Positions 10,860 to 26,392 of a stretch of DNA of 27,886 nucleotides are shown here, one piece after another. The stretch comes from a virus. The notes under the pieces were generated by a model. The model saw only the letters and a program-made list of their open reading frames with translations, did no database searches and was not told where the DNA came from. A program made the position numbers and the translations under genes. The DNA lies in the IMG/VR virus record IMGVR_UViG_3300046003_006944, positions 1-27,886 of that record; one strand, 5' to 3'. Position 1 is the first letter of the stretch. Each line of letters starts with the position of its first letter.

Positions 10860-11221
10860 TGATAATCTACATAGCCAGCCCCTACACTATGGGTGATGTT
10901 GGTCAAAATGTTAGAGTGCAGATAGAAGCGGCTCACCAGATCATGGACGCGGGCCACTGCCCAATTGCGCCACTGCTCAACCATTACCTGCACATCCACC
11001 GCCCACGGCAGTATGAAGAATGGTTGCGCATGGATTTGAAGCTGTTGAGCAAGGCTGATGTGCTGGTGCGCCTCCATGGGTTGTCGATAGGGGCAGATAA
11101 AGAGGTGGGGTATGCCACATCTGTTGGCATTCCAGTGTTCCACACAATAGAGGATGCAATTGAATACTGTGATGCTACCGAGCTTTGCAATCAGCTTGGC
11201 ATTGATAAACCTATGGTATGA
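10856..11221 (+). CDS. Nucleoside 2-deoxyribosyltransferase-like (DUF4406-type) protein
   Basis: One hundred and twenty-one residues with the family layout: IIYIASPYTMGDVGQN (phosphate-loop-like), AAHQIMDAGHCPIAPLLNHYL, LLSKADVLVRL, then GADKEVGYATSVGIPVF with the probable catalytic Glu83. Relatives cleave or transfer the N-glycosidic bond of deoxynucleosides or nucleotides. In a phage this may adjust nucleotide pools or base modification, or act on nucleotide-derived defence signals. Substrate cannot be told from sequence. It overlaps the upstream stop (ATGA). Confidence 0.75.
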   Translation: MMIIYIASPYTMGDVGQNVRVQIEAAHQIMDAGHCPIAPLLNHYLHIHRPRQYEEWLRMDLKLLSKADVLVRLHGLSIGADKEVGYATSVGIPVFHTIEDAIEYCDATELCNQLGIDKPMV

Positions 11222-11263
11222 GTGCGTAAACAATTGCGCACGATGCGTAATTTTTCGTATTAT
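11222..11263 (+). promoter_or_regulatory. Promoter and palindromic operator before the terminase genes
   Basis: GTGCGTAAACAATTGCGCAC (11222-11241) is an interrupted palindrome overlapping TTGCGC (11234-11239), which with 18 bases and TATTAT (11258-11263) gives a possible promoter for the packaging and head genes. TGCGTAA also recurs at 11244-11250. The half-site matches the palindrome at 10319. Confidence 0.5.
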
Positions 11264-11281
11264 ACTTGGAGGTGTTTCTAA

Positions 11282-11323
11282 ATGCGGGGTTGGGGGAATT
11301 ATGCCAGCAGGGTTTCTGAGTGA
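11282..11323 (+). CDS. Possible 13-codon leader peptide overlapping terS start
   Basis: ATG 11282, nine bases after GGAGG, opens a frame for MRGWGNYASRVSE and stops at 11323, beyond the terS start at 11301. The strong site belongs to this frame while terS has only GGGGG before its ATG, so translation of the leader may feed terS. If transcription starts after 11272 the GGAGG is not in the message. Tentative. Confidence 0.3.
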   Translation: MRGWGNYASRVSE

Positions 11324-11564
11324 GCCGACAGCGAGACAGCTTGAGGCCACACTTGCACATCATTGGGATAGGGGTGACGTTGAAGCCTCCAAGGATGTCC
11401 TGCGCTACATGAGAGACCGCAGCATCTACGACAATATCCGACTCAAGGCAGCGCTCACGATTTTAGAGCAGTACGCAAAGCAGGTTGAGGAAGCTCCGAT
11501 TGATAGCGGTCCGACAGAGATACAGGTAACAGATTTCAGGGCAAAGCCAAAGGATGAAGCTTGA
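11301..11564 (+). CDS. terS: Small terminase subunit (probable)
   Basis: Eighty-seven residues from MPAGFLSEPTARQLEATLAHHWDRGDVEASKDVLRYMRDRS. A helical body (DNIRLKAALTILEQYAKQVEE) follows and the tail TEIQVTDFRAKP resembles the C-terminal TerL-binding strand of small terminases. It overlaps terL by 11 bases. It is shorter than most TerS proteins and has no obvious DNA-binding helix-turn-helix, so the call rests mainly on position. Earlier in-frame starts would lie in the promoter. Confidence 0.65.
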   Translation: MPAGFLSEPTARQLEATLAHHWDRGDVEASKDVLRYMRDRSIYDNIRLKAALTILEQYAKQVEEAPIDSGPTEIQVTDFRAKPKDEA

Positions 11565-12945
11565 ACTATCACTCAACGAGAAGCAGGGGGCAGCATGGGA
11601 TTGCCTGCATAGTGGCGTTGAGCGCCTTGGCTATGGTGGTGCCCGTGGTGGTGGCAAGTCTCATTTCGTGCAGGATTGGCAGATATATCGCCGATTGCTC
11701 TACCCGAAGACCAAAGGCCTTATCATCCGGCAGACCTACCAAGAACTCCAAGACAACCACATCGACCCTATCCAAGAGCGGTTTGGACACATCTGCAAGT
11801 GGCGTGAGCAGAAGAAGCGCTTTGAGTTCCCCAATGGATCAATCCTCAAGATGGGTTACATCCGATACCCAAAACGAGACCTCAAGCAGTACCAGGGTGG
11901 CGAGTACACCGATATTTGCATCGACGAGAGCCAGATGCACGAAGATGTTGTCAGGCAAAAGCTGCTTGGATCCCTGCGCACCAAGAAAGAGCGCGGCATT
12001 GTTCCTACCTTCATTGAGACATTCAACCCCGGTGACATTGGCCACGCCGACCTTAAGAAAACCTATATCGACCGATATTCAAACGGCACTTTGCCGGGGA
12101 ACATGGCATTTATACAGGCAACCGTTGACGATAATCCAGCGGTCAATGATGAGTATGTGAGGCACTTGGACAGCCTGCCCGAGAAGCTAAGGCGGGCATG
12201 GCGCGATGGAGATTGGACAGTGTTTGAGGGGCAATTTTTCACAGAGTTCGGTTATCACCTGCGGGAGCTGCCGTTTCACATTGAGCCACACAAGGCGAAC
12301 ATTTATGGCTCACTTGATTACGGTGATGGTGAGGCAGAAGATAGCGGTGCAACGTCTTTTGGATACTGGCACGTTGATGCAGATGGTAGGCCGCACCGCC
12401 TCTTCACCTATTACCGCAAGGCGCAAAGCCCGGCAACCTATGCACGAGAGATCTTTGAGCAGTGCCAGAGCTTCTACTGGACCGGGGGAATCATCCCTAA
12501 GGCGATATATGCCGACCCGTCAATATTCGTCAAAAAGAAGCAGGATGATGGAACCAGCCGAAGTATTGCTGACATATTCATTGCGCACGGGCTACCACTG
12601 GTCAGGGCCAACAATGACCGGGTGAACGGGTGGCGGGTAATGCGTCACTTCTTCGGCGAGACCGATGGGGTGCCGAATAGCTACTATTGGGGCGAGGGGT
12701 ACAACGCTCAATATGAAGAGTTCATGCCGCTGCTGATGCATGATGACAACCGACCCGAGGACGTGAAGAAGTGCAAGATAGACCACGTTGGCGATGAGTC
12801 GCGATACTTCTATATCGCAGCGATGGCGATGGGGAGCGCTGCAAAGGTTCGGGCAAAGCGTGGGCAGAATAACAATCTTGGCAAAGCTGCAGCACTGCAT
12901 GAGTTTGCCAGCAAAAAGAAGATAGGGAGCATGGGGTTAAGATGA
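11554..12945 (+). CDS. terL: Large terminase subunit (DNA packaging ATPase-nuclease)
   Basis: This 463-residue protein packages DNA into the procapsid. The ATPase domain has Walker A GGARGGGKS (28-36), Walker B ICIDES with Asp124 and Glu125, and a coupling motif ETFNPG (155-160). The nuclease domain (about 245-425) has acidic residues at Asp255 (GSLDYG), Asp321 (IYADPS) and Asp414 (HVGDES). Length is typical. The start overlaps terS and the stop overlaps the next gene (ATGA). Confidence 0.97.
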   Translation: MKLELSLNEKQGAAWDCLHSGVERLGYGGARGGGKSHFVQDWQIYRRLLYPKTKGLIIRQTYQELQDNHIDPIQERFGHICKWREQKKRFEFPNGSILKMGYIRYPKRDLKQYQGGEYTDICIDESQMHEDVVRQKLLGSLRTKKERGIVPTFIETFNPGDIGHADLKKTYIDRYSNGTLPGNMAFIQATVDDNPAVNDEYVRHLDSLPEKLRRAWRDGDWTVFEGQFFTEFGYHLRELPFHIEPHKANIYGSLDYGDGEAEDSGATSFGYWHVDADGRPHRLFTYYRKAQSPATYAREIFEQCQSFYWTGGIIPKAIYADPSIFVKKKQDDGTSRSIADIFIAHGLPLVRANNDRVNGWRVMRHFFGETDGVPNSYYWGEGYNAQYEEFMPLLMHDDNRPEDVKKCKIDHVGDESRYFYIAAMAMGSAAKVRAKRGQNNNLGKAAALHEFASKKKIGSMGLR

Positions 12946-13220
12946 TGGACAGAGTTTTGAGCATGGGCCACAACAATCTTGCCAGTTGCGAAGAGCACGA
13001 CATGGTTCACTTTGTCATGGCGGCGGGTGAGTATTCAGAGCTGATAAATCAGAGGGGTGGGCGCGGTGCACGGGCGGTGCTCGATGAAATCCGCTCCATC
13101 GTTTGCCCTGAGTACAGTGCCGCAGAGCTTGAAGCTGCGGACATGTTGAGCCCGCGGGAAGAGGTGTTTCATAGCAAGGATGGTGTCGTTGAGATATTCC
13201 AGAAGGTGGATGTATTATGA
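12942..13220 (+). CDS. Small protein downstream of terminase, unknown
   Basis: Ninety-two residues starting MMDRVLSMGHNNLASCEEHDMVHFVMAAGEY; the second Met may be the start. The middle is helical (SELINQRGGRGARAVLDEIRSIVCPEY) and the end acidic. It overlaps terL and the next gene by ATGA junctions. It is not recognised and may be a packaging accessory. Confidence 0.65.
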   Translation: MMDRVLSMGHNNLASCEEHDMVHFVMAAGEYSELINQRGGRGARAVLDEIRSIVCPEYSAAELEAADMLSPREEVFHSKDGVVEIFQKVDVL

Positions 13221-13498
13221 GTAAGAAGGAAAAGGCTGAGGAGGTGGAGGAGATGGTTGTCAGACAGAAGCCTTCGCTGCATCTTGATGGTGATGATGCG
13301 CTCGAAGGGTGCACCCTTGGCGATACGGTCACCATGACCGTGAAGGCAAAGCTGGTTGGTGACAATCTGGACACCTATGGCGAAAAAGAGCGGCGCAATC
13401 AGCGCTTCGAGATTATCGAGATCAAACGGGACGGTGGAAACAAACAGGCCGAGAAGGCACAGAAACGCGGAAGGGGGATAATGGGCTATGAGGACTAA
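13217..13498 (+). CDS. Small charged virion-operon protein, unknown
   Basis: Ninety-three residues with an acidic start (SKKEKAEEVEEMVVRQKPSLHLDGDDALEGCTLGDTVTMTVKAKLVGDN) and a basic end (KRDGGNKQAEKAQKRGRG). The middle looks like one beta-rich unit. It is coupled to the gene before it and overlaps the signal-peptide gene after it by 11 bases. Similar small proteins lie near portal genes in other phages but I cannot name a function. Confidence 0.65.
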   Translation: MSKKEKAEEVEEMVVRQKPSLHLDGDDALEGCTLGDTVTMTVKAKLVGDNLDTYGEKERRNQRFEIIEIKRDGGNKQAEKAQKRGRGIMGYED

Positions 13499-14138
13499 GG
13501 ATCTTTTGTTTTTTGGTGTTGTGCTGGTGGCGTTGTTCTGCATGGCGAAGGTTGAAGCGGCCCCCGCACCATACACGCGGGCGCCCTACAACACCATCGT
13601 GCAGATTGACACTATTCTGCTTGATGGCAATGAGACTGAATACACGGCGCTGTTCTCCCAGGACAATGGCGGTGCAAAGTCGCTGCTGCTTGAGGTGATG
13701 GACGATAATTCGGCAGGGTTTGCCAGTGATAGTGCGTGTGCCCGCATTGAGTTGTTGCAGGCCTTTGGGCTGGGTGACGACAAGCATGTTGCCGTGATGC
13801 CATCCCGCGCACATCCCGATAGTACGGGGTGGCCTTATGGGGTATCGTTCGTAATTAACGATTCATTGCGAATTGCTGAGATGTGCACCACATGCACATG
13901 GGTGCAGGTTGCAAGCCCCAAAACGCTGTTTGGCGACACTGTAGATTGGGAGTATGGCGGCGATATTGGCAGCACGGTTCAGACGTTTGGAGCAATGTAC
14001 TATGTGCCAATCACCCCGGACTTCTCCCCGTTCATGGTGCTCAAGTTTACCGGGAGAGCCAACAACGCAAAGCGCGGTGCGGGCAGTCGGTGGATTGTGC
14101 GTTGGGTGCAAGAGGGTGGACTCAAAACCAAGAGGTGA
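13488..14138 (+). CDS. Exported protein with Sec signal peptide in the virion operon, unknown
   Basis: This 216-residue protein starts MRTKD, then the hydrophobic stretch LLFFGVVLVALFCMA and a cleavage-like VEA before APAPYT. The mature part is beta-rich: YNTIVQIDTILLDGNETEYTALF, a central KHVAVMPSRAHPDS, CTTCTWVQVASP, and an ending with GRANNAKRGAGSRWIVRWV. No family is recognised. Its place between terminase and portal suggests a virion or assembly role, but the signal peptide predicts export. The middle section has a pair of close cysteines (CTTC) that could form a disulfide outside the cytoplasm. Confidence 0.75.
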   Translation: MRTKDLLFFGVVLVALFCMAKVEAAPAPYTRAPYNTIVQIDTILLDGNETEYTALFSQDNGGAKSLLLEVMDDNSAGFASDSACARIELLQAFGLGDDKHVAVMPSRAHPDSTGWPYGVSFVINDSLRIAEMCTTCTWVQVASPKTLFGDTVDWEYGGDIGSTVQTFGAMYYVPITPDFSPFMVLKFTGRANNAKRGAGSRWIVRWVQEGGLKTKR

Positions 14139-14140
14139 TC

Positions 14141-14380
14141 ATGTACTGGAAAGTGTTTCGTCCACTCGTCAGGTTGTGGAAGTTCAATAGAAACTATGAG
14201 ATGAGCCGTCTCAGTGGATTTTTGGGCAAGGCTCTGGATGCGCGTGTGGGGGTGTATCTCAAGCTCCCGCTTGGGGCGAGAGTTGAGGCTGCAAAGAAGG
14301 ACAAGCTGGTTGCCAAGAGTACAGAACTTTACATCAAGATCAAGAAATTTCGTGTTAGCGTGGGGTTAGAAATTGATTGA
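14141..14380 (+). CDS. Small basic protein, unknown
   Basis: Seventy-nine residues from MYWKVFRPLVRLWKFNRNYEMSRL; ATG 14141 follows GAGGTGATC. The protein is basic and amphipathic with two lysine-rich stretches (EAAKKDKLVAK, YIKIKKFRV). An upstream start in the same frame would overlap the previous gene heavily and lacks a ribosome-binding site. Its role is unknown; membrane association is possible. Confidence 0.55.
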   Translation: MYWKVFRPLVRLWKFNRNYEMSRLSGFLGKALDARVGVYLKLPLGARVEAAKKDKLVAKSTELYIKIKKFRVSVGLEID

Positions 14381-14425
14381 GATAAAGCATAAAATGTTTG
14401 CCAATCAAACAATCGACTGCGCACA

Positions 14426-15133
14426 GTGGGAGGATACGCACCTTCGTTTTGTTGGGTGCATGATGGCGCAGCTCAATTCATAATCCAAAACAGCGCGGGG
14501 CCATACGCGCTCTACCTGTTGGTTAGCTCACGCGCTGTAGATGGCACAATACGTAACTGCTCTGGAGATGGTGTTTACGGTACGCAGATAATGAATATGC
14601 TTATCGAGGGGGTTTCTGGCGTAGGTGTTTTTCTTAATGGGTATGGCAATGCGCACAGAGTTGTAGTTGATGGGGCCCCTACCGCGTTCAGCTCTGGCGG
14701 TATCAACAATGTTTTGACAGAGTGCATAGCGGCTAACGCTACAACTGGGGTTTTTAACAACAACGCATTGCTGCGTATTTCCGATTGCAGCATTATATCA
14801 ACTACGATAGGGCTCTCTAACTCGGGTTCTGTGAGCATTGAAAACTGCAACGTCTTTGGTGTAACAACGCCAATAAGCAATACGGGTTTTGTCGACGGTG
14901 CATGTATTGTAACCGCAGCGAGTCCGGTAGTGGACTATGTTGACGGAGATTTTAGCAACAGCGCGGAGAACAATCTGAGGTCTGTGCAAAAACCTGTCGG
15001 GGCTCAGTTTGATGTTGGCCCGACAACGGCATACATCACCGCAGGGCTCCCGCCGCAGATAGTAGCAGGTGGTGGTGGCGGAGATCCGTCTGTTATCTAC
15101 ATCAATGGCGGGCGCTATAGGCGCAATTCGTAA
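14426..15133 (+). CDS. Parallel beta-helix adhesin or tailspike-like protein
   Basis: The 235 residues read from a GTG show repeating short beta strands ending in small or Asn residues (GTIRNCSGDGVYG, MLIEGVSGVGVFLNG, VLTECIAANATTGVFNN, LRISDCSIISTTIGLSN, VSIENCNVFGVTTPISN), the form of a right-handed parallel beta-helix as in tailspikes. A glycine hinge (AGGGGGDP) and the tail INGGRYRRNS follow. The start is doubtful: no good ribosome-binding site lies before the GTG, and an ATG at 14394 opens another frame that stops at 14482, so a frameshift near the N-terminus is possible. The likely role is surface binding. Confidence 0.6.
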   Translation: MGGYAPSFCWVHDGAAQFIIQNSAGPYALYLLVSSRAVDGTIRNCSGDGVYGTQIMNMLIEGVSGVGVFLNGYGNAHRVVVDGAPTAFSSGGINNVLTECIAANATTGVFNNNALLRISDCSIISTTIGLSNSGSVSIENCNVFGVTTPISNTGFVDGACIVTAASPVVDYVDGDFSNSAENNLRSVQKPVGAQFDVGPTTAYITAGLPPQIVAGGGGGDPSVIYINGGRYRRNS

Positions 15134-15148
15134 AGGTTTGGATAAATT

Positions 15149-15958
15149 ATGGCAATAGGAATAGGCTTACTCAAACAGGCAACCATCGGGGTGTTCCCGC
15201 AGCTCCTCGCCCGTGGCAACTACCGTTCCAACGTGTCAAGCGGGTATTTCCCTATCTATCGTGGCGCTGCCGCTCTTGGTACTGAGCATCTTACACTCAC
15301 GGGAATGGATTCATCGTATGGATACCGCGCCGATACGGGGGAGATTAAGCTTGATGGTGTCAACGATTACTTGACTGGCAGTATCAGCATAAATCCATCC
15401 GAGATGACGCTGTTTTGCGCGGTCGATGATGATGGGGTGGGGAATGGTGGAGACCCTTCATATCTGCGGCTTATTGGAAGCTTGGTTAGCATAAGCGTTG
15501 GGAGACACGCCCTTACAGACAGGTCGCTGATAACAATCAACGGCGTGACAAAGGACGATTACAACGCTGGTGCATACGGGAGCTACCGTTCGCACTTTTT
15601 AAGCGTAAGCGGTGGTAAGGCTTACGAAAGGGTGGAGGCCACCTCGGATTGGCTTGAGATTGACCCCTCTCCCGTATTCAACGGTACTAATTACAACGCA
15701 ACAACGCTTAGTATCGGAGCACAAGCAGCAGACCAACCGCTCCGGTTCCTACTCGGCGCTATCAAATGCGTAGCCATCTTCCCGCGTCAACTCACACCGG
15801 AGGAGACCACATGGCTGAGTGCTGCTGCTCTTGCTGGCTTTCCGGGGCTCTACGCCAACGCATCTGGCGATACGGCAACGCTGCACTTAGATGACAAGAT
15901 TTCTGACACATCATCATATCGCGTTGGGCGGTACCGCAGGGGTTTGTATCGTAGGTGA
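15149..15958 (+). CDS. Concanavalin/LamG-like lectin domain protein, probable receptor-binding
   Basis: This 269-residue protein has a short N-terminal segment (MAIGIGLLKQATIG) and then a jelly-roll-type domain (about 60-225: IKLDGVNDYLTGSISINPSEMTLFCAVDDDG, LSIGAQAADQPLRFLLGAIKCVAIFPRQLTPEE). That pattern is common in LamG/concanavalin A-like folds of phage appendages. The C-terminus ends YRVGRYRRGLYRR, sharing GRYRR with the beta-helix protein before it. It probably binds carbohydrate, though no sugar-contact residues can be assigned. Confidence 0.6.
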   Translation: MAIGIGLLKQATIGVFPQLLARGNYRSNVSSGYFPIYRGAAALGTEHLTLTGMDSSYGYRADTGEIKLDGVNDYLTGSISINPSEMTLFCAVDDDGVGNGGDPSYLRLIGSLVSISVGRHALTDRSLITINGVTKDDYNAGAYGSYRSHFLSVSGGKAYERVEATSDWLEIDPSPVFNGTNYNATTLSIGAQAADQPLRFLLGAIKCVAIFPRQLTPEETTWLSAAALAGFPGLYANASGDTATLHLDDKISDTSSYRVGRYRRGLYRR

Positions 15959-16006
15959 GTAATCATTGAAAAGCTGTTATTTTTAGCAAATTTATCTGAG
16001 GGAATT

Positions 16007-17851
16007 ATGAAGTTTAATCACACCAATGCAGACCACATCCAGCAGGCGTACCAAGATGTCGAGGAGCGCGTTGGAGACTTCTTTGGCTCAACGCTCTATA
16101 GTGAGGAGTGGAACAGATACCAAGTGCGCCGGGATGCATACTATTGCCGTCACCGCAGCGAAACGGCCTATTGGCGCAGTAAGTTGCACCTTGCCACGTT
16201 TTGGCTGTCGGTCAAGGCTTTGGAGGCACAGCAGGTGCAGGCGTACAGCCAATGGCCGCTAATAAATATCACTGCTACCGATGATAGTATGGTTGATGCT
16301 GGGGCAAACGAGAAGGCGCAACTGCTCCAATCCGATCTCAACTATGACCTGCAGGGCGGGCGCTTTGATGCCAAGCTCAAGCGCATGCTATGGTGGGTGA
16401 ACATAAAGGGGCACGCGGTTGGCCGGGAGTACATCCGCAGCGAGGCAAGCAGCGAATCCATGCAGCTTGCCATGGGTGGACGCACCGACCAGATAAAGCG
16501 CGTTGAAAGAACGGTAACCATGCCTATTCACCCGCTGAACTATGCGCATGACATCACCTGCACCGACTTTGTTGATAGCCCCTGGGGGGCAGTGCGCTTT
16601 GAGGTGCCAATCTCTGAGATCTACAAAATGCGCGGCAACTCCCTCTATAATCAGAGTGGGGTGAATGAGCTTCTCAAAAAGATTCAGGATAACAAGGGAG
16701 CTGGAACCGGGTACTCCTACGGCAAAACCACATTCTACACCGACCATGGCGACATATCAACCATGCGACGGCACTACATTGTGCTGGAAGAGTATAATGG
16801 CCCGGTGCACTCAAGCAACAACCTGGGCAACGATACCCGCTATTATATGCTGTACTGCCGTCCGTACAATCTGGTTCTGAGGATTGGACCCAGCCCGTTC
16901 AAGCTGCATCCATACTGGAAGATGCAGGCGCACCCCGATCCAGATGGCCCGTTTGCTGTTGGCCCTTGTGACATGGTGCTCCCCATCAACGAGTGGGAGA
17001 ACAGCACAGTGAACCAGTACAATGACTATGTTAACGCCTCCCTCAAGTTCCTTTACAAGGTCAAGCCCGAGAGCATCGTGGGCGGTGCCATGAGCCTTAT
17101 TGACGGGCTCCCCCTTGGGATGGTGCAGATTGAGGATGATGAGAGCGGGAACGCATGGGCCCAATCTATCGAGCCTATCCGGCAGAACATGGGGACTATT
17201 CCCCCGGTGAGCGATGCTATCGCCTTAATCGACAAGTACAAGGAGCAGCAGGGGGTAAGCAGCAATCAGCGCGGGGTTGGGAGTGACCAGTTAAGCGACA
17301 CGGCAACCGGGATTACCACCATGGCCCGGCGTGAGGACATGATGACCCAAGCGATACTTGACGGTATTGATCGCGGCATCGAGGATGGCATGTCTATTAA
17401 AATTGAACTCATGACCAAGTTTTTCAAAGAGAACCGCGTGGTGCCTGCCGACTACGACGGGCAAACGCGCTACGTTGAGCACTTCCCCCATGAGCTCGCT
17501 GGGCTTGGGTGGATTCCAAAAGCGCAGCGGCAGACCCCTGATGTTGAGATAGCCAAGAATATGAGCTTCCTCAAGTTTCTGGCTGGATTAAATCAGATGG
17601 CAGGGGCTCCCGTGGTACCTCCCCGGGTACTTGTAAAGGCGGCAAAACGGGTGGGAATGAGCATTGGCGTATCTGGTGCCGAGGAGATATTTGCAGAGGT
17701 GTTGCAGGGTATGCAACAGGCCCCCATGATGCCCCCGCAGGTTGGCGGGCCGATGCCGGGCGGGCAGGCTCAGGGAGGCGATCCTATGGCAAGCATGAAT
17801 CAAGAGGCTGCCGCAATGGGGCAGGGTGCAATGGCCGCAGCAATGGTGTAG
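16007..17851 (+). CDS. Portal protein
   Basis: This 614-residue protein lies between terminase and scaffold/capsid genes, the usual position, and its length fits podovirus-type portals. It has an N-terminal helical part (TNADHIQQAYQDVEERV), a central clip/wing region with MVLPINEWENSTVNQYNDYVNASLKFLYKV, and a C-terminal helix-rich stem with SDTATGITTMARREDMMTQAILDGIDRGIEDGMSI. The tail is rich in Met, Gln, Pro and Gly (about 565-614). Twelve copies would form the ring through which DNA enters and leaves. GAGGGAATT precedes the ATG. Confidence 0.88.
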   Translation: MKFNHTNADHIQQAYQDVEERVGDFFGSTLYSEEWNRYQVRRDAYYCRHRSETAYWRSKLHLATFWLSVKALEAQQVQAYSQWPLINITATDDSMVDAGANEKAQLLQSDLNYDLQGGRFDAKLKRMLWWVNIKGHAVGREYIRSEASSESMQLAMGGRTDQIKRVERTVTMPIHPLNYAHDITCTDFVDSPWGAVRFEVPISEIYKMRGNSLYNQSGVNELLKKIQDNKGAGTGYSYGKTTFYTDHGDISTMRRHYIVLEEYNGPVHSSNNLGNDTRYYMLYCRPYNLVLRIGPSPFKLHPYWKMQAHPDPDGPFAVGPCDMVLPINEWENSTVNQYNDYVNASLKFLYKVKPESIVGGAMSLIDGLPLGMVQIEDDESGNAWAQSIEPIRQNMGTIPPVSDAIALIDKYKEQQGVSSNQRGVGSDQLSDTATGITTMARREDMMTQAILDGIDRGIEDGMSIKIELMTKFFKENRVVPADYDGQTRYVEHFPHELAGLGWIPKAQRQTPDVEIAKNMSFLKFLAGLNQMAGAPVVPPRVLVKAAKRVGMSIGVSGAEEIFAEVLQGMQQAPMMPPQVGGPMPGGQAQGGDPMASMNQEAAAMGQGAMAAAMV

Positions 17852-17858
17852 GAGAGGT

Positions 17859-18185
17859 ATGTTCAAGAAGGCTGAAAAAGAAATCGTATTCGTTCCGATA
17901 GTTGGCACAGACTCACGCCCATACGAAGATCGCTGGGTTGATGAGGCGTATCTGAGAACCATTGAGGGGTTCGGAGGCAATGGCTATTTCATTGGCGAGG
18001 TTGCCGAAGGGCTGCGCCGGCTGCGCGAGTTGGCCGACAAGGCAGAGACCCCGGAGGAGCTGAAGGGGTACAATGCCGGGATTGCATCGCTCAAGCGGTT
18101 GCTCACCCTCCCCGAGCGGGCAAAGCGGGTGCGCCTGCAGGTGGCAGAGATTGAAGAAAGGCGGCGCGGCGTTGAATTTGGATAA
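17859..18185 (+). CDS. Helical protein after portal, unknown
   Basis: One hundred and eight residues from MFKKAEKEIVFVPIVGTDSRPYEDRWVDEAYLRTIEGFGG; GGAGAGG precedes the ATG. The second half is coiled-coil-like (LRRLRELADKAETPEELKGYNAGIASLKRLLTLPERAKRVRLQVAEIEERR). It may be a head or assembly accessory. No family recognised. Confidence 0.65.
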   Translation: MFKKAEKEIVFVPIVGTDSRPYEDRWVDEAYLRTIEGFGGNGYFIGEVAEGLRRLRELADKAETPEELKGYNAGIASLKRLLTLPERAKRVRLQVAEIEERRRGVEFG

Positions 18186-18495
18186 CATCAAAGAAATGAT
18201 CTTGGCAGAGCTGGGTGCGTTCGAGGTCCACAATGGCCCGTTTGAGTATTTCCTGCGGGTGTACCGTGACAATGAGGAATACAAGGAGTTCGATGAGCAC
18301 ATCGTGCTGCACAGCTTCAAGCGCACGTCTCCCCGGTACAAGGCAACAGATCCAGACATTGCGCTCAAGAGAACCATCACCGATACGATAATGCCTATGG
18401 TTTTTGAGTGGCTTGAATTGAAAGATCCCGGTCCCAGCAATATATTTATATACTACAACGATCCAGTTGTTGGAACAAAGGTGAATTTAGAGTGA
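18172..18495 (+). CDS. Unknown virion-operon protein
   Basis: One hundred and seven residues if started at TTG 18172, which follows AAAGG; TTG 18178 or ATG 18196 are alternatives. The sequence LDNIKEMILAELGAFEVHNGPFEYFLRVYRDNEEYKEFDEH is followed by a beta-rich part ending GPSNIFIYYNDPVVGTKVNLE. Its stop overlaps the GTG of a tiny basic peptide gene. It is not recognised. Confidence 0.55.
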   Translation: MNLDNIKEMILAELGAFEVHNGPFEYFLRVYRDNEEYKEFDEHIVLHSFKRTSPRYKATDPDIALKRTITDTIMPMVFEWLELKDPGPSNIFIYYNDPVVGTKVNLE

Positions 18496-18545
18496 AAAAC
18501 GGTAAAAAGTGTGGCAAGGGGAAGAAAAAACCCAAGCCGTATTGA
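18492..18545 (+). CDS. 17-residue strongly basic peptide
   Basis: GTG 18492 overlaps the previous stop as GTGA and encodes MKNGKKCGKGKKKPKPY before TGA. Nine of 17 residues are Lys. It lies after the portal-linked genes and before the terminator and scaffold gene. Coupling and composition suggest it may be made, possibly to bind DNA or the scaffold, but a frame this short could be chance. Confidence 0.4.
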   Translation: MKNGKKCGKGKKKPKPY

Positions 18546-18620
18546 ACTCACAAGTAATACTTAACAGTTGGGCAATCCTTTACGTTTGGCGGCCACCATG
18601 CGCAAGGGGTGAAGAAATTA

Positions 18621-18659
18621 GGGCTGGTAAGAGCTTACCCTCTTGCCAGCCCTTTTTTT
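18621..18659 (+). terminator. Intrinsic terminator or attenuator before the scaffold gene
   Basis: GGGCTGGTAAGAG pairs with CTCTTGCCAGCCC (12 of 13 positions, one G-T type mismatch) and seven T bases follow. It ends transcripts from the terminase-portal block and separates them from scaffold and capsid expression. No promoter is evident between it and the scaffold gene at 18685, so read-through or antitermination is probably needed. Confidence 0.85.
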
Positions 18660-18684
18660 ATGCCCAAACCAATGAAGGAGCAGT

Positions 18685-19695
18685 ATGAGTGAAGAAGGCG
18701 CAGCAGTAGACACGTTAGCCAGTGTTGACACGACACCGACAGCACCAGCGCAGGACGCGGGAGCGAAACCAGTGCCGGTAGCGGGTGAAACGGGGGCAGT
18801 ACAGGCAGCGTCGCAACAGGCGATGCCAGCAGATGCGAAACCAGTACAGGACGCACCGCAAGCGGCAGCACCAATGCAGGTCGAAATTGAGCCGGAGCTG
18901 TTGAGCTTTGCCGATGCAAAAGGCTTGACTGCGGAGCACCTGGGCGATGAGAAATTCAGGGGCTTTGCCAAGAGTTACCGTCAGGCAGAGGCCAACATGA
19001 ACAGGCTGCAACAGGAGAACCGTCAGCTAAATGAGCAAATTTCTGCGCTAAGTGCGCAATCTTTTGCGCAGCCAGTTGATGAGGTTGGCCCGGTGCAGCA
19101 GGTTAAGGACACCTATGCAAGGGCTTTGCAGAGCCAGTGCGCTGTTTTGGGATGCCAAAGCGCAGCGGAGTTGCAGCAGAACCACCCGCAAGTGTGGCAG
19201 CGGTTGCAGCAGGCAAAGCAAGACGCATGGGAGGAGGCAGTTGTTGAGGAATCGAAGTGGCAGCAGGGGAAGTCAGCGCGTGAAGCGGCGCAAAAGGATA
19301 AGCAAGCCCGTTTTCAGCAAGAGTTCCAATCTGCAAAGATGGCCTACTCGGAGAATATTGTCACCGCAAAGCAGAAAAATCCATCAATCGAGATGGATTT
19401 GATAAAAAGCGGAGTGGTGAGCATGCTCCAAGAGGTCTCAAAGGCCACAAAGATGCCGCTTGAGTACATGATGGCACACAAGCCACTGTTTTCAAAGGCG
19501 GCAGAGCTTGCCGAAGCTTGGAAGTTTGTCAAGAACAAGGACAAGTGGGAATCTGAGCGGCGGCAGGAGTGGGAAAAAGGTTTAAAAGAGTCTAAAACAG
19601 CCGAAATGCCGGGCGATACACCGATCCCGATGGACCAATCAGTGCTTTTCAGCCTGCGGTCCCAGCGTTCCGGCAAAGGCGTATCAATTCAATAG
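18685..19695 (+). CDS. Scaffold protein
   Basis: This 336-residue protein has a low-complexity Ala/Pro/Gln/Val N-terminus (about 1-70), a long helical and coiled-coil middle (AEANMNRLQQENRQLNEQISALSAQ, Q-rich 115-230) and a basic C-terminal part. It lies directly upstream of the major capsid gene. These are typical scaffold features: it guides capsid shell assembly and is then released. There is no protease motif. AAGGAG precedes the ATG. Confidence 0.85.
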   Translation: MSEEGAAVDTLASVDTTPTAPAQDAGAKPVPVAGETGAVQAASQQAMPADAKPVQDAPQAAAPMQVEIEPELLSFADAKGLTAEHLGDEKFRGFAKSYRQAEANMNRLQQENRQLNEQISALSAQSFAQPVDEVGPVQQVKDTYARALQSQCAVLGCQSAAELQQNHPQVWQRLQQAKQDAWEEAVVEESKWQQGKSAREAAQKDKQARFQQEFQSAKMAYSENIVTAKQKNPSIEMDLIKSGVVSMLQEVSKATKMPLEYMMAHKPLFSKAAELAEAWKFVKNKDKWESERRQEWEKGLKESKTAEMPGDTPIPMDQSVLFSLRSQRSGKGVSIQ

Positions 19696-19704
19696 GAGTG
19701 AATC

Positions 19705-20922
19705 ATGGCAGTAACTGCAAATTATCGGACGAGTGCTAACAGCACGACCGAAGGAACTCAGGCGCGTGATGTTTCTGACATCATTTTCCACACTGGTGAG
19801 CCTACCGAAGCCCCCCTGGTCACTCTGACTGGTGGAAAGCTGTACAAGAGCGGTGGGCAGGAGCCCGAAGATGTCAAGGGTGTTGTTGCCCGTGAGGCTT
19901 GCGACAATGTCAAGTATGAGGTGATTGAAAAGGATCCTCTCGCCCGCACTGTCGTGACCAACGGAGCGATTGCCAGCACTACGACTGCAACACTGGTGGT
20001 TGATTCTTCTGCCAACATTCGTGTTGGTGACACCATCTTCAACAAAACCAGCGGAGAAGTGTGCTATGTGACCGCAATTGATGCCAACGGCACCGATGTG
20101 ACTGTGCGGCGCAACCTTGGCAGCTCCTCCTTCGCCATCGCTGATAATTCGGTGTGGACCATCATGGGCAACGCCTTCAAGCAGGGCGGAAGCAAGGCTA
20201 CGCTTAAGAGCCAGCTTGCCGCAGCCCGTGAGCGCTATGTGCAGATCACCAAGCGCAGCTTTGGTGTTACCGATACCGCGATGAACCTCATGCTTGAGAC
20301 CAAGCAGGTTGATTTGTGGGATGAGGAAGCAACCCAAGCGCTGGTTGAGCACAAGAAGGATATTGAGTACATGTTCTGGATGAACCCGCAGGCCGATTCC
20401 ACCACCGATAGCGGCAGCAATACCGTCTATTTGACTCGTGGTATCATTGGTGAGCTGGTTGCAGCAGGCAATTTCACTGATGTTGGTGGCGGGTTGACTG
20501 AGGATGAGTTCTTCGGCCCGATCGCTGAGAAGATTTTCGAGTTCGGCCCCGCACGCAAAAGCCTGTTTGTTGATGCTCGCTTCAAGAGCATTATCAATCA
20601 GTGGGAACGCGCAAAGGTGATGAGCAAGAACCGTGAAACCAAGTCCGGGCTGAACATCCAAGAGCTTGAGACCGGGCACGGCATTCTTGAGATCGTTCTT
20701 TGTGGTGTGTTCGGCAAGTTCTATGGCGACACCAAAAAGGGTTTTGGCGTTGCTCTGGACCTTGAACGCTTGGCTTACAAGTATGTCAAGAACCGTGACA
20801 CCAAGATCGACGAGAACATCCATACCCCCGGTGACGATGTGAAGGAAAGCCAGTACATCACCGAGGCGGGGCCCTCCCTGCGCTCGCTGGCACATCACCG
20901 GGTAATTTACAACGCAGCATAA
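19705..20922 (+). CDS. Major capsid protein, SU10/DUF5309 type
   Basis: This 405-residue protein starts ANYRTSANSTTEGTQARDVSDIIFHTGEPTEAPLVTL, then carries an inserted beta domain at about 95-140 (VRVGDTIFNKTSGEVCYVTAIDANGTDVTV-like), then KRSFGVTDTAMNLMLETKQVDLWDEEATQALVEHKKDIEYMFWMNP and RGIIGELVAAGNFTDVGGGLTEDEFFGPIAEKIFEFGPARKSLFVDARFKSIINQWERAKV. This order is the DUF5309 capsid family, an HK97 fold. AGGAG lies six bases before the ATG and a terminator follows the stop. Confidence 0.9.
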   Translation: MAVTANYRTSANSTTEGTQARDVSDIIFHTGEPTEAPLVTLTGGKLYKSGGQEPEDVKGVVAREACDNVKYEVIEKDPLARTVVTNGAIASTTTATLVVDSSANIRVGDTIFNKTSGEVCYVTAIDANGTDVTVRRNLGSSSFAIADNSVWTIMGNAFKQGGSKATLKSQLAAARERYVQITKRSFGVTDTAMNLMLETKQVDLWDEEATQALVEHKKDIEYMFWMNPQADSTTDSGSNTVYLTRGIIGELVAAGNFTDVGGGLTEDEFFGPIAEKIFEFGPARKSLFVDARFKSIINQWERAKVMSKNRETKSGLNIQELETGHGILEIVLCGVFGKFYGDTKKGFGVALDLERLAYKYVKNRDTKIDENIHTPGDDVKESQYITEAGPSLRSLAHHRVIYNAA

Positions 20923-20927
20923 CAAAC

Positions 20928-20954
20928 GGAGGGGGAAACCCCTCCACATTTTTT
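20928..20954 (+). terminator. Intrinsic terminator after the major capsid gene
   Basis: A perfect 7-bp stem GGAGGGG/CCCCTCC with a GAAA tetraloop is followed by ACATTTTTT. Located six bases after the capsid stop and just before the next ribosome-binding site. Partial termination here would set capsid expression well above later genes. Confidence 0.8.
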
Positions 20955-20969
20955 ACCATGGAGGATTAC

Positions 20970-21479
20970 ATGAATCGTATTATCGGCATTGTGCTTTTGT
21001 TTGTCGGCATTCTGGTTGCCGCTGAGACCACCAGCTTTTCGGATTTTGACGCAGGTGTGAAGCCGTCAAATATCCATGCGGTGCAGATTGTTGATGGCGG
21101 CTCTAACGAGTCTTCTGATTCGCTTTCTGCCGCAGAGGTTCTTTACATTGGCCCGATCAGCCTGACGGCCGACCGCAACAGTCCCATGTACAAGGGGTTC
21201 GGTTACTTCCTGGGCATTGTTACCGGGACCACCCCGGTTGCAGCGTTTGATTACACCCTATTGTCGGGGCCAGATCTTTCTGATACCACGGGAAGCTGGA
21301 CGCTGGTTGATACCCTTACCACCACTGCGCAAAGCGGGTACGTGAGCCTATCCGACAAGGCGGCAAACTACATTGTGTTTCGCGTCAACAACTACGATGC
21401 GACCACCACCAGCTTGCCCAATCCCTGCAATGTGTATTTCAAGCGTGACGAAGTATTCAATAACGACAAGCGCAAATAG
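20970..21479 (+). CDS. Exported protein after the capsid gene, possible head decoration
   Basis: This 169-residue protein starts MNRIIGIVLLFVGILVAAETTS, a signal peptide with a likely VAA cleavage site. ATG 20970 is preferred over 20958 because GGAGG lies five bases before it. The mature part is beta-rich (VQIVDGGSNESSDSLSAAEVLYIGPISLTADR, SGPDLSDTTGSWTLVDTLTTTAQSGYVSLSDKAANYIVFRVNN). The location after the capsid gene fits a decoration protein, but the signal peptide does not fit cytoplasmic head assembly. It is bracketed by two terminators. Confidence 0.7.
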   Translation: MNRIIGIVLLFVGILVAAETTSFSDFDAGVKPSNIHAVQIVDGGSNESSDSLSAAEVLYIGPISLTADRNSPMYKGFGYFLGIVTGTTPVAAFDYTLLSGPDLSDTTGSWTLVDTLTTTAQSGYVSLSDKAANYIVFRVNNYDATTTSLPNPCNVYFKRDEVFNNDKRK

Positions 21480-21486
21480 TGCAACC

Positions 21487-21514
21487 GCCTGCCGGGGCAA
21501 CCCGGCGGGCTTTT
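21487..21514 (+). terminator. Intrinsic terminator after the exported protein gene
   Basis: GCCTGCCGGG pairs with CCCGGCGGGC around a GCAA tetraloop (one G-T pair), followed by only four T bases. It is strong as a hairpin and moderate as a terminator. It is the second GNRA-capped hairpin within 600 bp. Confidence 0.7.
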
Positions 21515-21527
21515 CCTGTTTGGGGGA

Positions 21528-21812
21528 ATGATGAAAGGTAAAAAGACAAACGACGGCCACGCTGGAATTATCCCGGCTGTGCGCGATTCAAAGGCTGATA
21601 TTGAGGCGCTTGAGCGCATGCCTGTACCACCTGTTGAGGATAAAGAAGAGTGCTTTGTGTTCCTTGGGTGCGGCACGCATTTGGTATCTGTTGGGCAGGA
21701 AAAGAAGCGCGTTGAGGTTGAGTTTGCAGCGGTGAATGGGTACAAGTTCAAGACGGCCAACCGTGCAGTTGCCGATGCTCTAATCGCTCGCGGATTTAAG
21801 CAGGTGTCATAA
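21528..21812 (+). CDS. Small protein before the head-tail adaptor, unknown
   Basis: Ninety-four residues starting MMKGKKTNDGHAGIIPAVRDSK; the second Met may be the start. The C-terminal half is a small alpha/beta unit (ECFVFLGCGTHLVSVGQEKKRVEVEFAAVNGYKFKTANRAVADALIARGFKQV). The gene follows GGGGGAATG and shares one base with the adaptor start (TAATG). It may be a virion accessory. Not recognised. Confidence 0.65.
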   Translation: MMKGKKTNDGHAGIIPAVRDSKADIEALERMPVPPVEDKEECFVFLGCGTHLVSVGQEKKRVEVEFAAVNGYKFKTANRAVADALIARGFKQVS

Positions 21813-22438
21813 TGGCGCTGTCTTTTGAAAACTTGCGCAATCGCATGACGCGAGATTTTAAACTGCTCGGGCTAACCGATACGGCAACGCAAACAGATGT
21901 TGTGTGTGATGCTGTCGGGGAGTTCCTTGAAAAAATGGATGTGCCAGTGATAGCTGCGGCACTTTCAGTGAGCCCCGGCGTAGCTTTGTACTCCATCCCG
22001 GCAACCATCGATAAAATAGTGGATGTGCGCGATGAGTCCGGCGAGAGCGTCAACTACTCAATTGACACCACGACAGACACTATTGCCTTAGCAACCGCCC
22101 CGGCCGACGCTGCATCCTACACGGTGTATGGCACAACTCAAAATGTGCGCAGCAACCTTGACGCTGTTGTTGCTGCAATCCCTGAGAACGATGAGCACGT
22201 TTTGTATGCATACGTGAGAGCTGCGGCATACGAGTGGGCGCACCATGACAAGGCCCCAGGATTATGGCAGAAGGCTCGCGCAAAGGCTACTGCACGGCGC
22301 AAGAGTAAGAATCGGGCATTGAATGTGAGCGGGCTCACAGTGCGTCAGCGGGATGTGCGGGGGCGCTACATCGACGATCTGTATAGTGAGCAGGGGTATA
22401 CGCCATCTGTATCAACTCAATTTGAGAGCGATCTGTAA
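21812..22438 (+). CDS. Head-tail adaptor-like protein
   Basis: This 208-residue protein has an N-terminal helical part (FENLRNRMTRDFKLLGLTD...VVCDAVGEFLEKMDVPVIAAALSV), a beta domain (about 55-110) and a helical C-terminus (DEHVLYAYVRAAAYEWAHHDKAPGLWQKARAKATARRKSKNRAL, then RDVRGRYIDDLYSE). The adaptor of P22-type podoviruses has a similar helical body and extended tail. The location after the capsid genes and before a large beta-rich tail protein supports this role. Confidence 0.65.
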   Translation: MALSFENLRNRMTRDFKLLGLTDTATQTDVVCDAVGEFLEKMDVPVIAAALSVSPGVALYSIPATIDKIVDVRDESGESVNYSIDTTTDTIALATAPADAASYTVYGTTQNVRSNLDAVVAAIPENDEHVLYAYVRAAAYEWAHHDKAPGLWQKARAKATARRKSKNRALNVSGLTVRQRDVRGRYIDDLYSEQGYTPSVSTQFESDL

Positions 22439-24279
22439 TGGGAAACAACACCCGCTTCCAGTATTCCAAATACTATCACATTGATGGTGGGATTGATGAA
22501 TACCATCCTCCCGGTGAAATCGCTGACAACAAGGCGCAGTCCGGGCATGATATTCACATTGTCGGCAAAAAGGTTGTCATGCGGCCGGGCAGGACGCTGT
22601 GGAGCGATCAGACGCTACCTGGGGTTGTGCGCGGGGTTGCAGAGTTCATCGATGCAAGCGGCAACTCAAAAATTATCGTTGCCTCAGATGGCAAGCTGAT
22701 AAACGTCACAGCAACAGCTCAAACTAACCTTGCCACAGGCATGGTCAATGAGGGGGTGCACTTCACCTCGCACCGTGGCAAGCTGTTTGTGAATGGTGCG
22801 ACAACTCAGAAAAAATATGATGGGAGTGCCGTTGACCCGGTTGGGCTATCCGCACCGGGCACGACTCCAACAGCAGCATCTGGTGCAGTAGGAGCATTGA
22901 CGGGCAGCTATTCTGTTAAGGTCACATTTGCCATTGAAAGCGCAGGGGTGACACTGTATGAAAGCAATCCGTATGATGCCAGTAACACGGTTGCATTGAC
23001 AGCCAGGCAGTTGTCATTAAGCAGCGTGCCAGTATCGGGCGATACACGGGTAACGCACCGCTATATCTACCGCACTGTGGCTGGTGGGTCGAAGTGGTTT
23101 TTCGATGGGAAGATTGCAGATAACACGACCACGACCTACACCAGCACTCAGGCTGATTCAACGCTTGGGCGGCTTGTTGAGACAAACCACGGGCATCCAG
23201 TGACCGCTCCGGTGTGTGTCGGCGTGAATGAGCGGCTTGCATGGCTGGATGGTAACAAGGTCAGGCTGAGTGAGGCTAACGTATCCAACGCATACATGGA
23301 GTATCAGGTATCAACCCGCTTTTGGGAAATCCCCGGCAATGGAAAGGGCGTTGGGCTGGCTGCAGTCTACAATCAGGCCAGCGGGCGGCAGGATCTATAT
23401 GTGTTCGCCGATGATTCAATCTCTGTGCTGCCTGGGGGAAACCCAAATGAGCCGCTACAGATGGTTGTTGATACGGTCGGGTGCGCTCAACACGATAGTA
23501 TTGCGGTTTACAATGGGGCGATAGTTTTTCTAAGCAACAGGCAATCAGTCTGCATGCTGGTTGGCGGGCGCGTTGTTGATTTGACTTCTCGCAACATCCC
23601 GGTGTCGATGATTCGCACGCTCAATAATGCGTCTGCACGAGGTGCGATAATTTACACAAACTACTATGCTCTGTGCATGCGGGATGATTCCGGCAAGCTC
23701 TACAACCACAAGGTGTGGGTGTGTGACTTGTCGCGCATTAGAGAGGTTGAGCCGGGGCGAGCTGATGGCGTGTGGTATCCATGGAACATTGATGCTGAGT
23801 ATATCGTTGAGCGCAAAGACGGCACGATTCTGGCCGTTGACAACAATACAAAGCGCATTTGGAAATTATCACTTGAAACACGGGCAGACTCGCAGACGGA
23901 TGGAAGCACAGTTGCCATTGAGCCACATGTTAGAACGAAGAACTTCTTCTCAGATTCAATGCTGGTGATGAAGCAGCCGCGCATGCTGAGTATTAGGGGA
24001 AAATTCCAGCTCCCGATCATGGTTACGCCATACGCATACCAGGGTTTTGCCAATGATGAAATGTACTTCCAGACGGTGGAAGCCGTGGCTGTATTTGGTG
24101 CATATATACTTGGTGGAGCCCCAACGACAAAAGCGATAGAGGAGCTGGAAGCCCCTATCCCCTACAGTTGTGTTGGCAATACATTTTCGTTTCTTTTCGT
24201 CCAAGAGGCTACCGGAGATCAGTACTTTGAGATCGACGGCTATCTGTTTACCTATAGCACTTTTCAGAGGCAGCTATGA
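22438..24279 (+). CDS. Large beta-rich tail nozzle or stabilisation-like protein
   Basis: This 613-residue protein starts GNNTRFQYSKYYHIDGGIDEYHPPGEIADNKAQSGHDIHIVGKKVVMRPGRTLW and has repeated beta units typical of a propeller (AEFIDASGNSKIIVASDGKLINV, GVHFTSHRGKLFVNGATTQKKYDG, VGVNERLAWLDGNKVRLSE, YNQASGRQDLYVFADDSISVL, VCDLSRIREVEPGRADGVWYPW, TILAVDNNTKRIWKLS). The position after the adaptor and before the fibre matches nozzle or gp10-like proteins of short-tailed phages. The propeller is inferred by pattern. Confidence 0.6.
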   Translation: MGNNTRFQYSKYYHIDGGIDEYHPPGEIADNKAQSGHDIHIVGKKVVMRPGRTLWSDQTLPGVVRGVAEFIDASGNSKIIVASDGKLINVTATAQTNLATGMVNEGVHFTSHRGKLFVNGATTQKKYDGSAVDPVGLSAPGTTPTAASGAVGALTGSYSVKVTFAIESAGVTLYESNPYDASNTVALTARQLSLSSVPVSGDTRVTHRYIYRTVAGGSKWFFDGKIADNTTTTYTSTQADSTLGRLVETNHGHPVTAPVCVGVNERLAWLDGNKVRLSEANVSNAYMEYQVSTRFWEIPGNGKGVGLAAVYNQASGRQDLYVFADDSISVLPGGNPNEPLQMVVDTVGCAQHDSIAVYNGAIVFLSNRQSVCMLVGGRVVDLTSRNIPVSMIRTLNNASARGAIIYTNYYALCMRDDSGKLYNHKVWVCDLSRIREVEPGRADGVWYPWNIDAEYIVERKDGTILAVDNNTKRIWKLSLETRADSQTDGSTVAIEPHVRTKNFFSDSMLVMKQPRMLSIRGKFQLPIMVTPYAYQGFANDEMYFQTVEAVAVFGAYILGGAPTTKAIEELEAPIPYSCVGNTFSFLFVQEATGDQYFEIDGYLFTYSTFQRQL

Positions 24280-26075
24280 CAAGAGCATTTTTGATTGTTG
24301 CGTTGTTGTTTGGTGGAGCTTTTGCAAGTGGCGGCGATACCCTGCGGTGGCCCGTTGATTTGCGCAATGTGCAGGACGGTGATACGTTTTTTGTCAGCCG
24401 TCACATCGCCCCGCTGCGCGATAGCACACAGAGCGTTATCAATGGGCGGCTTGGCAATGTGAATATTGCTACCAATGCCAATATCGGGCAGGATAAAATC
24501 GATAGCACTGGCACAGGGTGGTTGTATCGGTACGGGAAAAAGTTCACAAAATGGTCTGGTGAACTATTGTCGTTTAGAAGTTCACGCGGGATCAATGTTT
24601 TTGTGAACGACACTACGGCCAACTCCCAGCCGTTCAGCATTATCAGTGACAGCTCCGATACGGTTGCAAAGTTTTCAGAGAGTGGAGTTGTGCTTAAAAA
24701 AGGTTTAAATGCAACAACGGGCAGCTTTAGCGGAGATGTAAGTGGTGATGATTTTGATCTGGATTCGGTAACCTGCACAAAAGTCAACAGCGGGCAGGGC
24801 TGGACTGAGATTTATCCGCAGGACCAGAACTTGAGAACTACGGACGGGCCTACCTTTACAGGCGCAACCCTCAGCGGCTTGACCGCCTCCCGCTTGACAG
24901 CCACCAACGCCAGCAAGGGCCTTGCCTCTGTACCGACTCTTAGTAGCTGGATAGCTGGCACCGCCAACCGTATCACGGCAACCGACAACGGTTCTGGCGG
25001 TCTAACCCTTAACCTGCCGCAGGACATCCACACCGGAGCATCTCCGGCATTCGCTCAGCTCAATATTGACAATTTGCGGCTTGATGCTAACACTTTGTCA
25101 AGTACAAACACAAACGGGGATATCAACCTTGAGCCAGACGGGACTGGCTCTGTTGTTACGACTAAAGCGCTGTCTGCTGGTAGTATTTCTACAGCTGGAA
25201 CTTTTAGCTGTTCCGGCAACGCCACCCTCGGGAATGCGTCAACGGATGCGCATGCGATAAGCGGAGCCGTAACTTTTGCTCCTGGGGTACAAAGTTACAA
25301 ATTTGGCAACCGCTCAATGGCAGCATATTTACAGAGCCAGACCAGTGGCGTTGTGGCAGCGCTTGGGCTACATACTGCTGATGGTGACGGGACTGACGCA
25401 CTTGGTATATCTTTGTGGGCTAAAGGCACGCCGCTTAGTTATACAGTTCGCGAGAACTTAAATATTGAGTATGATAATACCAATCGAAGATATTTAGTTT
25501 TTAGCGGAGCTGTTGGAACTGGCGCAGTGCTATTGCCAATCGTACTATCTGCTGCTGGTAACGCCACCCAACTCGTGCTCAACACCGACAACAGCGTATC
25601 GATGAGCGGCGCTCTCACCGCAGCCAGCTTGACAACCGCTGGGGCTTCGACAGTTGGCAGCCTCACTACCGACACGCTCGCAGGAATCACCACAATAGCA
25701 GGTAGCTGGTATCAAGACACCGCCTTTGCGTGCACCTTGTCGCGAGTTGGGTATACCTCAACGCTGAGTTATAACGCAACACACAAGGACTCCATTGGAA
25801 CCTGTCGCATAGTTAAAACCGGGGCGAACTACAACGTGTATTTGTACGATTTTGACGCTATGGTGACCGCCTCCAGCTTTGGTTTAATGTATCTAAAATC
25901 AGTGCTCCCTGTCGCTTGGAGGCCAAACGGTACCTATTCCTGGATGATAGGTGATAACGGCGGGGCGAATTTCGCTACAGGATCCTACGACCCTTCAAGC
26001 TATCGCTGGATGTTCAGCTTTGAAACAGGCAACTCTATGTGGCTGACGGCGTTTGCGACGAGCTACACAAAATGA
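24276..26075 (+). CDS. Tail fibre-like protein with Sec signal peptide
   Basis: This 599-residue protein starts MTRAFLIVALLFGGAFASGG; the hydrophobic core and AFA cleavage motif before SG form a textbook signal peptide. A long repetitive beta part follows, rich in Thr, Ser and Gly (GPTFTGATLSGLTASRLTATNASKG, ITATDNGSGGLTLNLPQDIHTGASPAFAQLNIDNLRL, INLEPDGTGSVVTTKALSAGS), typical of trimeric phage fibres. It ends with a globular tip (about 490-599, Trp-rich). The start overlaps the upstream stop (ATGA). Fibre genes normally lack a signal peptide. Confidence 0.75.
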   Translation: MTRAFLIVALLFGGAFASGGDTLRWPVDLRNVQDGDTFFVSRHIAPLRDSTQSVINGRLGNVNIATNANIGQDKIDSTGTGWLYRYGKKFTKWSGELLSFRSSRGINVFVNDTTANSQPFSIISDSSDTVAKFSESGVVLKKGLNATTGSFSGDVSGDDFDLDSVTCTKVNSGQGWTEIYPQDQNLRTTDGPTFTGATLSGLTASRLTATNASKGLASVPTLSSWIAGTANRITATDNGSGGLTLNLPQDIHTGASPAFAQLNIDNLRLDANTLSSTNTNGDINLEPDGTGSVVTTKALSAGSISTAGTFSCSGNATLGNASTDAHAISGAVTFAPGVQSYKFGNRSMAAYLQSQTSGVVAALGLHTADGDGTDALGISLWAKGTPLSYTVRENLNIEYDNTNRRYLVFSGAVGTGAVLLPIVLSAAGNATQLVLNTDNSVSMSGALTAASLTTAGASTVGSLTTDTLAGITTIAGSWYQDTAFACTLSRVGYTSTLSYNATHKDSIGTCRIVKTGANYNVYLYDFDAMVTASSFGLMYLKSVLPVAWRPNGTYSWMIGDNGGANFATGSYDPSSYRWMFSFETGNSMWLTAFATSYTK

Positions 26076-26392
26076 GCACTCAGATAGTAGAGCTAAACCC
26101 CTCAGCGTCTAAACTTTTTGGGCGCTACAATAGGGGGGATATTATATTAGTATTGTGCGATGCGGCGGCAGCTCCGTTCGATGTGGTGCTGCCCGACCCG
26201 CGCTCCCTTGAGGATACTTTGTTAATCATAAAGAAGGTGGACTCAACGGATAACGCGGTATCGATTCGCCCCGCGCTACCTACCCAAACAATCGACGGTA
26301 GCGCAGCGCTTAGTATAGAGGTGCAGTATAAAGCATACACATTGGCCCCCCACAGCCGTACCAATCAATACTTGATAACGGCGCAGACCTAA
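26072..26392 (+). CDS. Small beta-roll protein linked to the fibre
   Basis: One hundred and six residues from MSTQIVELNPSASKLFGRYNRGDIILVLCDAAAAPFDVVLPDP; ATG 26072 overlaps the fibre stop (ATGA). The pattern LLIIKKVDSTDNAVSIRPALPTQTIDGSAALSIEVQYKAYTLAPHSRTNQYLI is the sort of small domain often fused to tail fibres (DSTxNxVxI...TIDG). It may be a separate fibre subunit or a chaperone. It could be part of the fibre complex. Confidence 0.6.
   Translation: MSTQIVELNPSASKLFGRYNRGDIILVLCDAAAAPFDVVLPDPRSLEDTLLIIKKVDSTDNAVSIRPALPTQTIDGSAALSIEVQYKAYTLAPHSRTNQYLITAQT

Follow-up and report, generated by a model that had tools for sequence, protein, structure and literature searches.

Predicted signal peptides on three late-operon proteins, one of them fibre-like, of a temperate SU10-type podophage

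The record and its gene map

The stretch of DNA analysed here, the window, is the whole 27,886-base uncultured virus record IMGVR_UViG_3300046003_006944, which is incomplete at its right end. It belongs to a temperate SU10-type podophage. The left arm lies on the minus strand and carries the integrase gene that marks the phage as temperate (466-1575; PHROG 1, E 4e-35), together with Lar-like, DnaD-like loader, NinB, Gam-like, SSB-like and Erf genes. A pentapeptide-repeat protein is encoded in the same early region (2652-3194, minus strand). The right arm is the late operon, in which the terminase large subunit (11554-12945, plus strand, as are all late features listed here with matches; PHROG 979, E 7e-31), an SU10-type portal (16007-17851; PF23899, E 4e-9), a gene in the scaffold position, an SU10-type major capsid protein (19705-20922; PF17236, E 2e-28), an adaptor with a weak match to its SU10 counterpart (21812-22438; PF24175, E 0.01) and a tail stabilisation or head-closure-type protein (22438-24279; PHROG 511 and 8040) occur in this order. 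A strong terminator-like hairpin, 14 pairs and then a T-run, lies just 5' of the scaffold-position gene at 18620-18653.

Three further plus-strand genes of the late operon are the subject of this report: SP1 (13488-14138, 216 residues), SP2 (20970-21479, 169 residues) and SP3 (24276-26075, 599 residues). The SP3 gene is overlapped by one for a 106-residue protein (26072-26392, plus strand) that resembles a fibre-associated domain by eye only, and beyond it a long glutamine-rich reading frame (26402-27886), apparently helical and possibly an internal virion protein, runs off the right end.

The window capsid protein is about 30% identical to its nearest others, apart from that of an identical contig, L002 (IMGVR_UViG_3300044951_001847), which matches the window at 100% over 10385-23001. 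No other close relative was found in the collections searched, and scans of genome collections with the capsid and terminase proteins returned distant Clostridia prophages only. Hints about the host conflict: the DnaD-like loader is Firmicutes-like, and the short signal peptides look diderm. Homologues of SP1, SP2 and SP3 were sought by tblastn of 50,697 phage records and in PHROGs, Pfam, NCBIfam, PADLOC, PDB and IMG/VR, which yielded the one identical contig and, for SP3 as the exception, matches to generic fibre repeats. SP3 was also absent from 395 genomes in the phylum to which a Bacteroidaceae metagenome-assembled genome belongs.

Signal peptides and their rarity

The preliminary description had assigned complete Sec signal peptides to these three genes, with cleavage after VEA, VAA and AFA, and had judged chance an unlikely cause; all of this was borne out. 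From the ATG codons at 13488, 20970 and 24276, the proteins begin MRTKDLLFFGVVLVALFCMAKVEA/APAP (SP1, residues 1-24), MNRIIGIVLLFVGILVAA/ETTS (SP2, residues 1-18) and MTRAFLIVALLFGGAFA/SGGD (SP3, residues 1-17), where the slash marks the predicted cut; all three are tripartite, with the basic start and the small residues at positions -3 and -1 that are typical of Sec substrates. We scored them with a home-made scorer of the n, h and c regions, tested on seven known E. coli signal peptides (9.9-13.4). The values were 12.5 for SP1, 13.4 for SP2 and 11.2 for SP3, in the range of OmpA and OmpF, with the best cuts after residues 24, 18 and 17. No further transmembrane-like segment is present in SP1 or SP2; in SP3 a single stretch near residue 407 is moderately hydrophobic.

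Sequence context marks these codons as the natural starts. The ATG at 20970 is preceded by GGAGG at 5 nt, which makes a longer reading frame from 20958 unnecessary; that at 24276 has AGAGG as its ribosome site; and that at 13488 is adequate, with a G-rich motif, GGAAGGGGG, farther from the ATG. Later in-frame starts of the three genes showed no convincing ribosome site, except possibly a weak one at M19 of SP1. Contig L002, being identical over 10385-23001, confirms the first two starts and not the third.

Genes were counted as passing if they satisfied the scorer, began with ATG, had a Shine-Dalgarno-like motif and encoded at least 110 residues. In the window SP1, SP2 and SP3 alone pass, i.e., 3 of 33 genes, compared with 6/1719 in loci from phages whose terminase or capsid protein is related to that of the window, 1/519 in loci chosen for the fibre repeat and 186 of 200,000 random N-termini; loci rich in bacterial chromosome, the positive control, gave 43/1085. 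The binomial P for 3/33 is about 2e-4 against the related phages and 4e-6 against the random N-termini. Sec export of the three proteins is therefore predicted, and on these sequence features we regard it as probable. Full-text literature searches found no direct report of Sec signals in virion proteins, which is weak evidence since the texts covered were open access.

Two extra genes and a fibre

Downstream of the window capsid gene come, in order, a hairpin plus T-run (20928-20945), SP2, a stronger terminator-like hairpin (21487-21510; 10 pairs, 9 of them GC) and a small gene for a 94-residue protein (21528-21812), all read on the plus strand. A clean view of this region is given by L342, L343 and L346, prophages in Clostridia-type genomes with the same late gene order; in these, and in Roseobacter phage CRP-810, the small gene lies 48-74 bases after the capsid gene, with one hairpin in the gap. 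A stable hairpin after the capsid gene is present in all four SU10-type relatives examined for it (L342, L343, L346 and L004; 20923-20970 in the window). By this comparison SP2 is a cassette that brings its own terminator and was inserted after the capsid hairpin, ahead of the small gene. This reading rests on synteny because what links the small genes is their position and length, their sequences being only 15-21% identical. The preliminary description had put the gene at 20970 at the head decoration locus. On gene order we reject this, since the relatives carry a different small gene there, and SP2 matched no decoration family in PHROGs or Pfam. Mature SP2 is predicted, at low confidence, to be beta-structured; a structure prediction without an alignment reached a pLDDT of 40, and a viral fold search gave nothing below E 0.02 and was disregarded.

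SP1 lies in a 3-kb block (12942-15958, plus strand) between the terminase and portal genes. These two genes abut in L342, L343 and L346, where the block is absent. It contains two small genes, SP1, a gene for a 79-residue basic protein (14141-14380), a beta-helix-like gene (14394/14426-15133) and a LamG-like gene (15149-15958) whose LamG match is below the cut-off. The beta-helix-like gene is frame-disrupted and looks split: a 29-residue frame from the ATG at 14394 (MFANQTIDCAQWEDTHLRFVGC...) overlaps a main frame open from 14426. Contig L002 carries the same split sequence; the gene may use a real frameshift or be a pseudogene. The beta-helix-like and LamG-like proteins also have a C-terminal GRYRR motif in common (15100-15133 and 15900-15958), which suggests a common sorting or attachment tail. 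Mature SP1 is apparently beta-rich; it has no family or PDB match, and an AF2 model of the mature part made without an alignment (pLDDT 30) was unusable.

SP1 and SP2 are thus each an extra gene between genes that are adjacent in relatives, as is characteristic of morons. SP2 also has its own terminator, the hairpin at 21487-21510 that is additional to the post-capsid one; for SP1 the only candidate is a weak one at 14197. A search of the plus strand upstream of SP2, limited to sigma-70-like sites, found no promoter, and we therefore call these genes moron-like and do not class them as morons. They are probably moron-like cargo, not decoration proteins. The idea that all three genes encode virion proteins accordingly gives way to one fibre and two cargo genes, SP1 and SP2 being insertions relative to the related phages.

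SP3 is the only one of the three in the canonical fibre slot, after the stabilisation gene, and its description as fibre-like was upheld by a repeat common to annotated tail fibres. This repeat block, at about residues 226-298, matches the Melnitz tail fibre (64% identity over 36 residues, E 8e-5), and the C-terminus appears knob-like by eye. We collected 80 contigs with the repeat block, 79 of them with a complete gene start, and in 78 of these 79 the fibre has no signal peptide. No S74 domain or known MAT tip was found in SP3, and a PDB search gave no match to the solved Bdellovibrio MAT domains, whose deposited structures are C-terminal constructs and omit the conserved beta-rich domain of about 130 residues that comes after the MAT signal peptide; lacking such a match, SP3 is not called a MAT protein. 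No second fibre gene is visible in the incomplete 27.9-kb record, and SP3 might therefore be the sole fibre of the virion.

The one exception among the 79 is L277 (IMGVR_UViG_3300049844_000214), a contig of 36.5 kb that carries terminase, head and tail genes. Its 439-residue fibre (5575-6894), which matches the SP3 repeat block at E 2e-12, begins MKEKSLIVSLVAIFGGLIGFQACA-SQ and bears a signal peptide; the gene starts one base past the preceding gene, with a GGAG motif, and sits between the tail genes and a transglycosylase SLT gene (Pfam E 2e-12), with holin-like genes also downstream. L277 has no capsid protein detectably like that of the window, so the two predicted exported fibres probably represent independent cases. 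At its tip the L277 fibre matches Bd2734 of Bdellovibrio bacteriovorus (PDB 8OKW, E 1.3e-4). Bd2734 is one of the 21 fibre-like proteins of the MAT family, which have a signal peptide and are localised on the predator surface (PMC10769870).

Another phage contig, L165, encodes a 662-residue LRR-like protein (14079-16068) with a predicted signal peptide, adjoining a portal-type gene. It was dropped as a precedent because of a possible alternative start, which lies after the signal peptide.

Proposed role and comparison with known systems

The explanation we favour, with modest confidence, is that SP1, SP2 and SP3 are late-expressed, Sec-exported envelope proteins, the fibre probably acting as a receptor-occupying protein or adhesin and SP1 and SP2 being moron-like. 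The virion operon would produce the three proteins late, the SP2 cassette using the strong capsid transcript by read-through, and the Sec pathway would move them into the envelope of a diderm host and not into the head, keeping them away from cytoplasmic assembly. SP3 would form a trimeric adhesin of the tail-fibre type on the outer surface. Once exported, and certainly once freed by lysis, it could occupy a surface receptor on the infected cell, debris or neighbours. The simplest benefit would be that superinfecting phage is excluded and progeny are not trapped on debris; alternatively, SP3 could serve as a host adhesin, for which PblA/PblB and the MAT fibres are precedents. Receptor occupancy by SP3 is a tentative assignment, and SP1 and SP2 may be its partners or independent morons. 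A surface-displayed layer is, by this account, the best of the options raised in the preliminary description.

Several lines of evidence favour this explanation. The signal peptides are of E. coli strength at natural starts and occur far above the rate in related phages; SP2 lies outside the conserved order of capsid gene, hairpin and small gene, and SP1 in an extra block; nearly all fibres that share the repeat are signal-less, and the independent L277 fibre combines a signal peptide with a MAT-like tip; and streptococci offer a precedent for phage tail proteins as surface adhesins. Counted against it are that no SP1 or SP2 homologue of known function was found in the searches and no SP2 promoter was detected, and that SP3 is possibly the sole fibre and does not match the solved Bdellovibrio fibres.

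Among the other explanations, we consider it unlikely that the hydrophobic N-termini stay uncleaved and are used in the particle, e.g., as buried plugs or membrane-contacting entry peptides. Hydrophobic termini do occur in virion proteins, and cleavage here is a prediction, but all three N-termini also show the basic start of Sec substrates and their small residues at -3 and -1, SP1 and SP2 belong to the accessory genes, and the 78 signal-less fibres are all free of any such segment.

SP3 could instead be a real virion fibre that is exported first, waits in the periplasm and joins tails at lysis. Its place in the canonical fibre slot of a record that displays no other fibre agrees with this, as does the ability of P22 tailspikes to join preformed heads in vitro. 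We nevertheless judge such late assembly improbable: we know of no tailed phage that assembles a fibre after export, 78 of the 79 repeat-sharing fibres do without a signal peptide, and SP1 and SP2 would be left unexplained as inserted cargo.

It is equally improbable that we are dealing with a prophage in decay or already domesticated, with the fibre and its neighbours now working as ordinary secreted adhesins of the host. The disrupted frame of the beta-helix-like gene would fit, and so would a signal-peptide density (3/33) nearer that of loci rich in bacterial chromosome (43/1085) than that of phage loci; against this, every essential head gene seen is intact, and the identical contig L002 is a sign that the phage circulates, although independence of the two records is uncertain. 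That the hydrophobic starts arose by chance and lead to no export, an idea to which the home-made scorer and the possible later start M19 of SP1 lend something, is highly improbable given P of about 2e-4 against related phages and the strong Shine-Dalgarno motifs of SP2 and SP3.

Returning to export into the envelope, the window phage has its capsid, portal, gene order and post-capsid hairpin in common with SU10-type podophages, but the SU10-type relatives examined have neither SP1 nor SP2 and no signal peptide on the fibre. Like phage morons, SP2 is a hairpin-bounded extra gene between genes adjacent in relatives, and SP1 belongs to an extra block; unlike them, both lie inside the virion operon and have signal peptides on their products, and no sigma-70-like promoter was detected for SP2. 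The superinfection-exclusion lipoprotein Llp of phage T5 is likewise phage-encoded, sits in the envelope and could mask a receptor; by comparison, the window proteins have no lipobox, and SP3 is fibre-like, not a small lipoprotein.

The usual view is that tail fibres are produced and put together in the cytoplasm. A more general proposal, which we advance as speculative and rather doubtful, is that certain tailed phages export a fibre dedicated to receptor binding, together with helper proteins, to cover the envelope of the dying cell, and that such fibres are a source of MAT-like bacterial adhesins. If true, the window and L277 fibres would connect the receptor-binding proteins of phages with the surface adhesins of bacteria, and an export-tagged fibre would suggest a late, receptor-level form of exclusion.

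PblA and PblB of Streptococcus phage SM1 are tail-module proteins that become bacterial surface adhesins; they belong to a Gram-positive system, reach the surface via permeabilisation by holin and lysin, and bind phosphocholine (PMC2920869, PMC4508584). S. mitis PblB is drawn without a signal peptide and a pneumococcal PblB is predicted to have one (PMC2920869, PMC4508584); the export route of SP3 differs in its predicted signal peptide. The Bdellovibrio MAT fibres resemble SP3 in having a signal peptide followed by phage-tail-fibre-like repeats, and they carry an adhesive tip (PMC10769870). Unlike them, SP3 is encoded in a phage operon, and its sequence matches none of the solved MAT domains, whereas the tip of the L277 fibre does give such a match.
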